A stretch of DNA of 8,436 bases from Verrucomicrobiaceae bacterium (GTDB lineage: Bacteria > Verrucomicrobiota > Verrucomicrobiae > Verrucomicrobiales > Akkermansiaceae). Below, one piece after another: positions 2,729 through 8,314 of the stretch (the stretch's first letter is position 1; the number at the start of each line of letters is the position of its first letter). Location of the stretch: the NCBI GenBank assembly GCA_003820635.1, contig RPOS01000133.1:1-8436 (forward strand), given 5' to 3'. The notes beneath the pieces are model-generated. The model made no database searches. It saw only the letters and a list, made by a program, of their open reading frames with translations, and was not told the DNA's origin. A program made the position numbers and the translations under genes.

Positions 2729-2798
2729 GGGTGCGATGTTCCCGCCTGCCGCCACGACTGCCAAGCCGGAAAACCAGCGACTCCGCGCCCAGGGCCCG

Positions 2799-2993
2799 GC
2801 GCATCAAGCGGATCCACTGCAGAGCCGCTGGGCAGTAAAGGATTGCGGAGGGAATTCTCAAAACCGGTTGCGGAAGAATGCCTTGCTCCCAGCTTCAGAG
2901 ACTCTTGCGTCCTGCTTTTGGACCCTCTTTGCCCGGCTCTGCGGTGAAGAATATCCCGGATTTGAATGCGGCGGCCCTGCCCGCTTGATGCGC
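2799..2993. repeat. 13-bp inverted repeat spanning about 195 bp
   Basis: GCGCATCAAGCGG at 2799-2811 recurs as its exact reverse complement at 2981-2993. The span between outer ends is about 195 bp, the size of a small non-autonomous element, but no clear target-site duplication flanks it and it holds no transposase. It could instead be chance or part of a larger RNA fold. Confidence 0.4.
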
Positions 2994-3059
2994 GCCGCGG
3001 GACTTTCTATCAACTCCATCCCTTACGCGTTCATCCTGAACAGAAGAGCCGGATAAACT

Positions 3060-3095
3060 CTGAGATTATGAAGCAACCCCTCTTGGCAATCTCAG
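3060..3095. repeat. Palindromic hairpin, 8-bp stem
   Basis: CTGAGATT (3060-3067) and AATCTCAG (3088-3095) form a perfect 8-bp stem. Inside it AAG (3071-3073) and CTT (3082-3084) can add a 3-bp inner stem. It lies in the gene-free stretch. It has no U tract on either strand, so it is not a standard terminator; an operator or a structured transcript leader are alternatives. Confidence 0.45.
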
Positions 3096-3221
3096 GTCAC
3101 GCTCCATTCTTCCCATGCCGCAGCAAAAGAAGCCGCAACGGATGTGGCAAAATGCGTTGCCCATGCCATCTGGACGCGGCACGTTCCAACGCACGCATTG
3201 GGAGCGTTTGAATACGCTGGA

Positions 3222-3403
3222 AGAGCATTTGCACTTCAGCGCCTCAAAAAATGAATCGTCGAATGCCGCGGCTTCACCGGACTGGGCCTCGCCATCGTCC
3301 GCACCGCCGTCGGAGCTTGTGTGGCGGAGAGGTTTCACCGAATTTGCCGGTTGAAGGTGGTCTGGGCGTCACCATCCGCCTTTCCAAGAGTCGGCCGGCT
3401 TGA
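3222..3403 (+). pseudogene. Frameshifted remnant of a sensor histidine kinase (HATPase C-terminus)
   Basis: The strongest evidence is the ATP-lid G2 box of a histidine kinase, TGLGLAIVRTAV, encoded at 3276-3311. The expected continuation of such kinases (a Cys, two glycines, then a beta strand) is found in a different frame from about 3320: CGGEVSPNLP, then VEGGLGVTIRLSKSRPA and a stop at 3401-3403. The reading must therefore shift near 3311-3322. Upstream, NESSNAA (3250-3270, another frame) and AFALQRLKK before a TGA at 3252 loosely match the F-box and linker that precede G2 in kinases; this part is weaker. The dimerisation domain, H-box, N-box and G1 box are all absent. The piece is the dead 3' tail of a kinase gene. 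Part of its frame runs open into thiD, which makes thiD look artificially longer. Confidence 0.6.
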
Positions 3404-3440
3404 AAGATTGCAAGTCCCGGTGGATCATCCATCCAAGTCC

Positions 3441-5215: not shown

Positions 5216-5241
5216 ATCATCCCCCGGCCGTGAGCGACTGC

Positions 5242-6939
5242 ATGATCGGCGAGCGTCACTTCGCGGCGCGCGAGCGCCTGGCCGATCTCCTCCATGGCAT
5301 CTTCGCGCTGGCGGCCGAGACCCACACCGGGCTCGACCAAGTCCTTTCACCCGCCGGCCTTCAAAACGAGCTGTGCAAACCCATCTCCGTCATTGCCTGC
5401 GGGGAAGTGAATGCCGGCAAGTCCTCGCTGCTCAATGCGCTCTGCGGCCAACCGCTCTGCCCCACCAGCGTGCTGCCTCTCACCGACCGTTTCCTCCGCT
5501 ACCGCTACGGCAATCCTGCCCGTAACGAGATGGATGGCCCACACTTCGAGGAAATATGCCGACCGATCAGTTGCCTTGAAAAATTGGTGTTGATCGACAC
5601 GCCGGGAACGGATTCCGGAGTTTCCGGCCATGCCGAAATGCTGGTGGATCTGGCGGGTGCGGCGGATCTGGTGCTGTGCGTGTTTCCGGTTTCCAACCCG
5701 TGGGGAGCGGCCTCATGGGATTTTATTTCCCGGCTGCCAGCCGCCGCGCTGGAGCGGGTGGTGCTGGTCATCCAGCAGGCGGACTTGCGGGAAGCGTGCG
5801 ATCTGGAAGTCATCCAAGGCCACATGGCGGACCTCTCGCTCAAGCGCGTGGGCCGGGTGCTGCCGTCATTCGCGGTCTCGGCGAAGCTCGCCGGCGCTGC
5901 AGGCGCCACCCACCAGCAGGCGGGTGGGTTTGCGAAGTTCGCGGATTTCATTTCCAGCGCCATCTGCCATGCCCCGGCGCGGCGCGGGCTTTTGGAAACA
6001 TGGCGTGGCCATGCCGCCAGCGCCCTGCGTCTGGTGGAGGACCGCATCGATGACCAAAGCCGCGAGATCAACCAGCACGGCCATTTCATTGCCGGCATCG
6101 AGCGCGAGATCGAGGACATGCGCGGGCAATTCGTCGCACGGCTGCCCAGCCACCTCGTGAATGTGGCGGAGGTTTTTCAAACCGAAGCCGTGGGGGTGAG
6201 CCGGATGCTGCACCGCCGCCTGCGGGCTTTTTCCTCCATCCTGCGCCTGTTCACCGGAGACCGCACCGGCCAGAACATGGAATCCGCCTTCATCGAGCGC
6301 CTGCAACAGACCATCCAAGCCGTCGCCGAAAAAGACGGCGGCGAGGTGGCCAGCGCCTGCGCCGGGCATTGGGAGGAACTTGCCGGGCGCGTCCAAAGCA
6401 CCATGCGCACGGAGCTCACCAGCGCCGAGCCGATTTCCAAGAAGCTCGCCGCCGCCCGCCTGCGCTTCGTGGAGCGTCTCAGCGGTGCCGCGCGGCAGGG
6501 TGTCGGCAGCCTCAAGGTGCGCACCCTGCTGGACAAGGACCTGCGCACCCGCAACCGGGCGCTGCGCTCGTTCATCGTCATGACGCTGGTGCTCACCACG
6601 GCCGGAGCCGCTTGCGGCGCGCTGGGCCTGCCGTGGCTGCCGGCGGTTTTCTGCGGACTGGCCGCGTTGTTTCTAACAGGTGGTGTGCTGGTGGCATGGC
6701 TCACCCGGCGGACCATCACGCGGGATTTCCGCGAGCGCCTGCTGGACACCTGCGGGGCCTTTGCCAACACGCTGCACAGCGATTACGAGGACGCCCTGCG
6801 CGTGATTTTCCATGACTACGCGGCGGCGCTCGGCCAGTTGCGCGCCCATCTTGCGCGGGAAAAACTCGCCATCGAGCCGCGCCAGCGCCGCTGGCAGGAA
6901 CTCTTCCTCACCCTCAAGGCCATCGAGCAGGATCTTTGA
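5242..6939 (+). CDS. Dynamin-like GTPase with C-terminal membrane hairpin
   Basis: A 565-residue protein with an N-terminal GTPase domain and a long helical rest, as in bacterial dynamin-like or mitofusin-like proteins that remodel or tether membranes. G1/Walker A is GEVNAGKSSLLNAL at 54-67; a G2 threonine is probably T75 or T81 (SVLPLTDRF); G3 is DTPG at 119-122; the G4 position reads QQAD at 178-181 instead of the usual N/TKxD; a possible G5 is SAK at 213-215. From about 250 onward the sequence is mostly helical and charged. Two hydrophobic segments, about 444-461 and 468-487, are split by a GLPWLP turn and followed by RR, forming a likely membrane hairpin before an approximately 75-residue cytoplasmic tail. 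ATG 5242 is preferred because the protein then starts MIGERHFAARERLA, as I recall for relatives; GTG 5230 is also in frame. No second GTPase gene, common beside such proteins, is present. Confidence 0.85.
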   Translation: MIGERHFAARERLADLLHGIFALAAETHTGLDQVLSPAGLQNELCKPISVIACGEVNAGKSSLLNALCGQPLCPTSVLPLTDRFLRYRYGNPARNEMDGPHFEEICRPISCLEKLVLIDTPGTDSGVSGHAEMLVDLAGAADLVLCVFPVSNPWGAASWDFISRLPAAALERVVLVIQQADLREACDLEVIQGHMADLSLKRVGRVLPSFAVSAKLAGAAGATHQQAGGFAKFADFISSAICHAPARRGLLETWRGHAASALRLVEDRIDDQSREINQHGHFIAGIEREIEDMRGQFVARLPSHLVNVAEVFQTEAVGVSRMLHRRLRAFSSILRLFTGDRTGQNMESAFIERLQQTIQAVAEKDGGEVASACAGHWEELAGRVQSTMRTELTSAEPISKKLAAARLRFVERLSGAARQGVGSLKVRTLLDKDLRTRNRALRSFIVMTLVLTTAGAACGALGLPWLPAVFCGLAALFLTGGVLVAWLTRRTITRDFRERLLDTCGAFANTLHSDYEDALRVIFHDYAAALGQLRAHLAREKLAIEPRQRRWQELFLTLKAIEQDL

Positions 6940-6994: not shown

Positions 6995-7404
6995 ATGTTC
7001 GAATCCGCAATCCGCCGCATGCCCCGCCCGCAGGAAGTCTCCCGCATGACCACTGCGGAGCTGCGCGAGGCTTTCCTCGTGCCCACCATCTATCAGCCCG
7101 GCAGCCTGCAAGGCCTGTTCACCGATCTCGACCGCATGGTCATCGCCGGCGCGGTGCCCACCAGCGCACCGCTGGAACTGCCGAACCCGAAGGAAACCGG
7201 CCACGCGTTTTTCCTGGAACGCCGCGAACTCGGTGCCATCAACACCGGCGGCCCGGCTCGGTGACGGTGGACGGCACGACCCACGCGGCGCATCCCACCA
7301 CCGTGGCGGCCCGCGAGCAGGCCAACACCGTGCCGCTCGGTGCGCAGTCCACGGCCAACCAGCGCGTCATCCGCCAATACATCCATGAAAACGGCATCCT
7401 CGAG
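6995..7404 (+). pseudogene. kduI: Disrupted 5-keto-4-deoxyuronate isomerase (N-terminal and central pieces only)
   Basis: Intact KduI isomerises 5-keto-4-deoxyuronate, the product from unsaturated uronates in pectin breakdown, before KduD reduces it. The ATG at 6995 opens an 89-codon frame with clear KduI sequence: AELREAFLVPTIY, DLDRMVIAGAVPT, then the diagnostic FFLERRELGAINTGGP. The frame stops at TGA 7262-7264. Adding one base near 7254-7256 restores GSVTVDGTTH in the next frame, which is the expected continuation. About 40 residues are then missing, and the text resumes as AHPTT, REQANTVPLG, and STANQRVIRQYIHENGI, matching the central part of E. coli KduI (VTLGDNLTSNRRTINKYF). The entire C-terminal half, where the zinc ligands of E. 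coli KduI lie (His196, His198, Glu203, His245), is gone. Function is lost. The right boundary at 7404 is approximate because kduD sequence follows in the same frame. Confidence 0.85.
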
Positions 7405-7701
7405 CCGTCCTGCACCGCGGCCAAGATCGGCATCGCCGGCACCACCTGGGTGCTCGCCTGCGAGTGGGCCAAGGAGCGCATCAACGTCAACGCCGTGGCT
7501 CCCGGCTACATCGCCACCGAAAACACCCGCCCCCTCCGCGAGGGCGAGAAACGCAACCAGACCATCCTCGACAGCATCCCCGAAGGCCGCTGGGGCACTC
7601 CCGAAGACATCGCCGGAAGCTGCGTCTTCCTCTCCACCGAGGAGGCGGATGATCTCAACGGCACCATCATGAATGTGGACGGCGGCTGGCTCAGCCGTTG
7701 A
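7405..7701 (+). pseudogene. kduD: Truncated 2-deoxy-D-gluconate 3-dehydrogenase-type SDR (C-terminal part only), fused to kduI
   Basis: Intact KduD is a short-chain dehydrogenase of about 250 residues that reduces 2,5-diketo-3-deoxygluconate in the step after KduI. Only the last 98 or so residues remain: PSCTAAKIGIAG, ACEWAKERINVNAVAPGY, IPEGRWGTPEDIAG, and the end NVDGGWLSR, closely following E. coli KduD (EWAKHNINVNAIAPGY and VDGGWLAR). The Rossmann nucleotide-binding GxxxGxG and the catalytic serine are missing. At the YxxxK site the tyrosine position is Cys (TGC at 7411-7413), while the lysine (7423-7425) is kept. The piece is in frame with the kduI remnant, so an automated caller may report a 146-codon protein from GTG 7261 to 7701. 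It cannot be an active SDR. Its last 11 bp overlap the thiE stop on the other strand. Confidence 0.87.
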
Positions 7702-8314
7702 GCCTCGTCCGCGCTTCGCGGGTGGCGGCCCGCACGTCCGCCGCAGTGAGCAGCTCGGAAACGATCACCACCCGGCGTGCACCGGCGGCCAGCACTTCGG
7801 TTAGATTGGCACGCTTGATGCCGCCGATGCAGAATGCCGGGATCCGGCTGCCGACCTCGCGCTCCATCGCCGCGATGTCCTGCAAGCCGATGCCCGGCCG
7901 CCCGGCTTTGGTGGGCGTGGGGAAAAGCGGGCCGAACCCGATGTAGTCGAAACCCTCGGCCAGCGCGGCGCGCGCCTGGTCCAGCGAGTGGGTGGAGCGG
8001 CCGATGAATTTCCCGGGCCCCATGATTTCCCGCGCATGGGCCAAGGGCCCGTCGTCCTGCCCGATGTGCACGCCATCCGCGCCAAGCTCCGCAGCCAGTT
8101 CCGGGAAATCGTTCAGGATGAACGGCACCTCCGCCGCATGGCACAGCGGGATGAGGGTTTTCGCCACGCTGCGGATGGTGGCGGTGTCATGATCTTTCGC
8201 GCGGAGCTGGAGCAGGTCCGCGCCGCCTTCTAACAAAGCGGCGGCCGTAGTCCCGGCTTTTTCCAGAGGCGTGTAGCCGAGATCGAGGATGGCGTAGAGA
8301 CGGGCGTGCGTCAT
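7691..8314 (-). CDS. thiE: Thiamine-phosphate synthase
   Basis: Joins HMP-diphosphate and thiazole phosphate to give thiamine phosphate (EC 2.5.1.3). The 207-residue TIM-barrel protein has the usual length. Visible family signatures: LLQLRAKD at 34-41, NDFPELAAELGADGVHIGQDD at 68-88 (diphosphate and magnesium site, D69 and D88), IGRSTHSLDQA at 104-114, DYIGFGPLFPTPTKAG at 123-138 (T135, K136), FCIGGI at 161-166, and VVIVSELL at 182-189. The start is ATG 8314, whose last bases overlap the stop of the zinc-finger gene upstream (ATGA), so translation is probably coupled. Several positions differ from common members (for example LRAK where ReK is frequent, GRS for GvS), but no catalytic position looks lost. 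Its 3' end overlaps the kduD remnant tail by 11 bp on the opposite strand. Confidence 0.93.
   Translation of the reverse strand: MTHARLYAILDLGYTPLEKAGTTAAALLEGGADLLQLRAKDHDTATIRSVAKTLIPLCHAAEVPFILNDFPELAAELGADGVHIGQDDGPLAHAREIMGPGKFIGRSTHSLDQARAALAEGFDYIGFGPLFPTPTKAGRPGIGLQDIAAMEREVGSRIPAFCIGGIKRANLTEVLAAGARRVVIVSELLTAADVRAATREARTRLNG

Follow-up and report, generated by a model that had tools for sequence, protein, structure and literature searches.

Layout of the locus

The window, meaning the whole stretch of DNA that was analysed, is a single contig of 8436 bases carrying thiD, a polysaccharide deacetylase gene, a gene for a dynamin-like GTPase and a convergent thiE. Between the last two sits a relic of kduI and kduD, the genes for 5-keto-4-deoxyuronate isomerase and 2-dehydro-3-deoxy-D-gluconate 5-dehydrogenase. 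Its parts and the two flanking genes are listed here, with identities to the operon of a relative, G002.

5230..6939, plus strand: gene for the dynamin-like GTPase, intact, upstream of the relic, starting at 5230 or 5242
6995..7254, plus strand: kduI codons 1 to 87, start ATG kept (NF002091 match; 81% nucleotide identity to G002 kduI, gap included)
7254..7255, plus strand: lesion 1, loss of 1 bp at an ambiguous exact place, followed by an in-frame TGA at 7262-7264
7255..7283, plus strand: kduI codons about 88-96 in a shifted frame, from comparison with G002
7261..7701, plus strand: open reading frame of 146 aa with a GTG start, running across lesions 2 and 3; near-identical to protein P0121
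7276..7284, plus strand: lesion 2, an in-frame deletion of 114 bp (38 codons) within kduI; both flanks are present in four relatives
7284..7399, plus strand: kduI codons about 135-173 (86% nucleotide identity to G002)
7392..7399, plus strand: lesion 3, where kduI meets kduD at a direct repeat of 8 bp, CGGCATCC
7392..7701, plus strand: kduD from about codon 156 to the stop, with PSY changed to PSC (SDR tail and TIGR01832 matches, blastn)
7691..8314, minus strand: thiE, intact and convergent, its stop codon lying within the last kduD codons

The GTPase of the window is closest to those of G002 (69% identity) and G001 (65%), the top two among 260 family genomes. A genome scan with a single GTPase sequence as query found no loci, and a scan with an alignment of 16 relatives found 27, of which 26 are labelled as Verrucomicrobiota, most often as Akkermansiaceae, Akkermansia or Luteolibacter. 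The bacterium carrying the relic is therefore probably an uncultured member of the Akkermansia family. A KduI match was expected near the GTPase and is present in the available sequence of none of these 27 loci, several of which stop shortly past the GTPase gene. The longest contig is the same for P0003 and P0133 (9433), and likewise for P0007 and P0168 (4233), which hints at a linkage of the GTPase gene and kduI in some relatives. On the other flank, the stop codon of thiE is supplied by kduD relic sequence read on the opposite strand (window 7691-7701), and the C-terminal tails of ThiE differ among four relatives. Elsewhere in the window, between an ApaG-like gene and thiD (2760-3420), there is no clear gene; a GLGLAIV-like stretch near 3275-3300, read by eye, looks like the tail of a sensor histidine kinase and is perhaps another relic.

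Parentage and lesions of the relic

What is left of the two genes? Residues 6-88 of the translation of 6995-7261 align with positions 3-86 of the NCBIfam KduI model (NF002091, E 5.7e-20), and the 7255-7698 frame aligns with positions 145-248 of the 248 of the KduD model (TIGR01832, E 1.5e-41), reaching the model end. Both parts score under the NCBIfam cut-offs (71.9 against 250 bits for KduI, 142.5 against 338.85 bits for KduD). Pfam returns the SDR tail as its single match, with none for the KduI front. Compared by blastn with the intact operon of G002, and with relic numbering beginning at window 6940, the relic falls into three collinear blocks: 56-344 on operon 61-350 with one gap (81% identity), 352-460 on 472-580 (86%) and 453-762 on 1400-1709 (89%). 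These matches bear out the coordinates and the KduI and KduD parentage of the original prediction. The homology follows operon order, as in a kduI-kduD pseudogene, and the sequence comparisons indicate that 6995-7701 is most probably a real, degraded kduI-kduD operon.

The details differ from what had been proposed. KduI was thought to run into KduD in one frame, but the KduI front (6995-7264) and the remainder (7255-7701) occupy two different frames, split by the 1-bp loss and the TGA that follows it. The front and middle of KduI were said to be present; codons from 1 to about 95 and from about 135 to 173 do survive, but the internal 114-bp deletion between them had been missed. This deletion is seen as a shift of the blastn offset against G002 from 6 to 120, and its breakpoint, read by eye, has 2-4 bp of possible homology. 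The third lesion, at the junction, accounts for 809, 818 or 827 missing bases when measured against G159, G005 or G002, respectively. Lesions 2 and 3 preserve codon phase, and no stop interrupts the frame between 7261 and its end at 7701. In total, three disabling lesions separate the relic from the intact operons of relatives, as is expected of a pseudogene. A single deletion as the full account is thus too simple, given the three lesions and the substitutions at conserved residues described below.

The idea that the operon collapsed by deletion holds nonetheless, since kduI and kduD are mostly adjacent in relatives and the join lies on the 8-bp direct repeat. The junction was compared with four intact operons in which the two genes are adjacent (G002, G004, G159 and G005). 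In three of them (G002, G159 and G005) kduI and kduD each contain the repeat, and its codon phase is the same in both; G004 has only CGGCAT, on the kduI side. When kduI/kduD break pairs are drawn at random from each of the four present-day operons, 0.024-0.053% of them show homology of at least 8 bp. A repeat of this length at the join, rare as it is among random break pairs, supports a deletion between short direct repeats.

Catalytic residues and selection

Could either enzyme still work? The relic kduI is without codons about 174-278, and all four metal ligands lie within the missing part: positions 197, 199, 204 and 245 of P0125, which we take to be the KduI metal ligands His, His, Glu and His, map beyond codon about 173, ahead of the kduI stop. 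The relic thus lacks the ligands of a functional KduI. The hallmarks of SDR enzymes are an N-terminal nucleotide-binding glycine motif and a catalytic YxxxK. With kduD starting at about codon 156, the glycine motif is absent, and in YxxxK the Tyr is replaced by Cys while the Lys is kept; the frequency of this Tyr is 1.0 in the corresponding column of 22 KduD-type proteins. The predicted loss of the KduI zinc site and of the KduD nucleotide site is therefore supported at the level of the deleted segments. Because the metal ligands, the nucleotide-binding half and the catalytic Tyr are gone, the relic is predicted to make neither enzyme.

The kept KduD tail has also lost five other highly conserved residues besides the catalytic Tyr. 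Five of its substitutions (Y to C, S to I, D to G, R to S and Y to D) are all at sites invariant in the 22 KduD-type relatives. At sites conserved at 95% or more, 6 of 79 are changed, compared with a maximum of 3 and a mean of 0.64 among these relatives, a set that leans towards the relic because it was drawn from the best 120 matches to the relic itself (20 proteins of 258 aa, P0202 of 173 aa and P0230 of 339 aa). P0230 was considered as a possible kduI-kduD fusion and reads as KduD with an extended start. The two KduI pieces have one change each, among 37 and 17 conserved sites; the 97 KduI relatives reach up to 3 and 2 there, so these counts are within their range. Branch dN/dS, from small counts, is 0.30-0.43 for the KduD piece against 0.04-0.13 on the G002 branch (ratios of branch values), and from similarly small counts it is not raised for KduI 1-86. 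With KduI pieces little decayed and no rise in dN/dS for KduI 1-86, either the operon was inactivated recently or too few changes were counted. On the sequence as it stands, the low KduI decay suggests a recent loss and would count against a long decay. A difference in decay rate between the halves (6 of 79 conserved sites in KduD, 1 of 37 in KduI) is not claimed, the counts being too small.

The same fused form on another contig

P0121, a protein of 146 aa with sources ncbi and ena, a longest contig of 2656 bases and 7 member sequences behind it, is identical to the window frame 7261-7701 except for the start residue and two internal sites. Its protein sequence carries lesions 2 and 3 and the same substitutions at catalytic and invariant KduD positions. 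P0241, the 89-aa truncated KduI front, is on the window contig and represents 4 member sequences, including that of the window. The fusion join thus appears not to be private to the window contig. The original prediction had named a fused form kept under purifying selection in relatives as an observation against it. The same form does recur, in P0121, but the substitutions that this protein shares with the window argue against selection for KduD function.

These copies also bear on the technical explanation, namely that an intact kduI-kduD was present and its reads were put together wrongly at the short repeat, so that the lesions are artefactual. The window is one contig, and in principle a repeat could cause an assembler to go wrong at the join; assembler k-mers are, however, much longer than 8 bp, and the repeat is far below that size. 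Three separate lesions together with missense changes at invariant sites do not fit a collapse, nor does the presence of lesions 2 and 3, the substitutions and two other internal differences in P0121, or a truncated KduI frame shared by four member sequences. Many called bacterial pseudogenes are assembly errors, according to a study whose scope leaves out MAGs (PMC11017572). The separate contig and the decay at base level speak against such an artefact, whose collapse form the original prediction had itself raised, and we consider it very unlikely.

kduI-kduD loci in the family

A DNA search with the relic and thiE together gave matches in 212 of the 260 family genomes; those listed, in E-value order, fall mostly in thiE, and none among the matches listed spans the kduI/kduD join. 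KduI itself is found in 45 of the 260 genomes, at 47 places. All 47 loci were inspected and counted by hand, with two duplicate rows excluded. At 33 of them a full or nearly full kduI is followed on the same strand, within about 210 bp, by a full kduD-like gene, in agreement with the proposal that the two genes are usually adjacent and co-directional. Ten have no kduD-like gene that close; nine of these are without a match above 60 bits in the stretch covered, and G136 has one at 1.8 kb. The remaining four are degenerate (G003, G115, and one locus of the pair that G096 and G159 each have), and as they lie on MAG contigs some could be assembly error.

The locus of G003 (L036/L104) joins KduI codon about 88 in frame to KduD codon about 24, giving a 324-aa frame, with a frameshift near KduD codon 186 (numbering of G009 proteins). 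Like the relic of the window, it has a KduI front in frame with a KduD back and a frameshift elsewhere, but it differs in KduI subtype and junction positions and is an independent event. A common KduI breakpoint in both (near codons 87-95) was considered and left as coincidence. In L102 of G115 and L105 of G096 one Tyr codon of the KduI motif EVYCYF, not the same one in the two loci, reads TAG as the single stop in kduI, and each KduD has a deletion or frameshift.

Is the 146-aa or 89-aa frame then a kept, functional short protein, for instance a hybrid of a KduI-like part and an SDR tail with a new role? The 146 codons stay open through two phase-keeping deletions, P0121 represents seven sequences, the KduI front is barely decayed and G003 has an in-frame fusion of its own. 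Against this, both deletions would keep phase about 1 time in 9 by chance, the G003 fusion is itself frameshifted, no whole enzyme core is left (KduI is without its C-terminal part, KduD without its Rossmann half and catalytic Tyr) and five substitutions hit sites invariant in KduD-type relatives. A retained protein is therefore extremely unlikely, and we give equally little credence to a broader version, in which in-frame kduI-kduD fusion, favoured by short in-phase repeats, has happened repeatedly in this family and the hybrid frame, kept in more than one strain, retains some role other than catalysis.

A redundant second copy, decayed while a functional kduI-kduD persists elsewhere in the genome, would be compatible with a decayed operon. 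G096 offers a precedent, with the decayed L105 and an intact kduI-kduD at L110, and so may G159, where L103 (kduI truncated at the front, kduD intact) accompanies the intact L099, though L103 is 89.8% identical over 1090 bp to the first G159 locus and a mix of strains in this MAG could explain the pair. On the other side, KduI is at one place in 43 of the 45 genomes that have it, and no KduI was found in the assemblies of G001 and G006, which are among the closest by GTPase or thiE. Redundancy seems to us a less likely background, though one with a fair minority share of the chances.

Interpretation and comparison with known systems

The relic is very probably a recently inactivated kduI-kduD operon. 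The pathway would no longer have been needed, or the copy would have been redundant; decay would then have involved a deletion between short direct repeats, a second internal deletion, the loss of 1 bp and missense changes, with no order implied, leaving a relic that should yield neither a working KduI nor a working KduD. From this we infer that the organism may have lost the pathway. Gene decay of this kind is ordinary in bacteria. It matters here for annotation: an automated pipeline could call a short SDR-family oxidoreductase at a place where no working enzyme is predicted. Broken kduI-kduD loci are now known from one lineage more in Akkermansiaceae, though the set is still small, and with such loci about, the use of unsaturated uronates is not to be assumed there from KduD-like matches.

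Titles and abstracts yielded no literature on kduI/kduD pseudogenes, and titles and abstract openings nothing relevant on fusion pseudogenes. A 2025 survey reports that kduI-kduD genes are usually clustered (mSphere; PMC12838403), and its main text has no words beginning with fus, pseudogene or Verrucomicrob; how pseudogenes occur in bacteria and are removed from their genomes is well documented (PMC2916853). The relic is consistent with the known clustering, with pseudogene removal and with short-repeat deletion, and is in these respects an ordinary pseudogene. It resembles the kduI-kduD operon (NF002091/PF04962; TIGR01832) in gene order, orientation and the sequence of the kept parts, and differs from it in that neither gene is intact. 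In E. coli, deletions between short direct repeats are known to arise independently of RecA (PMC5426353); compared with such events, the relic is alike in the 8-bp direct repeat at its kduI/kduD junction and differs in carrying two further lesions and missense changes.
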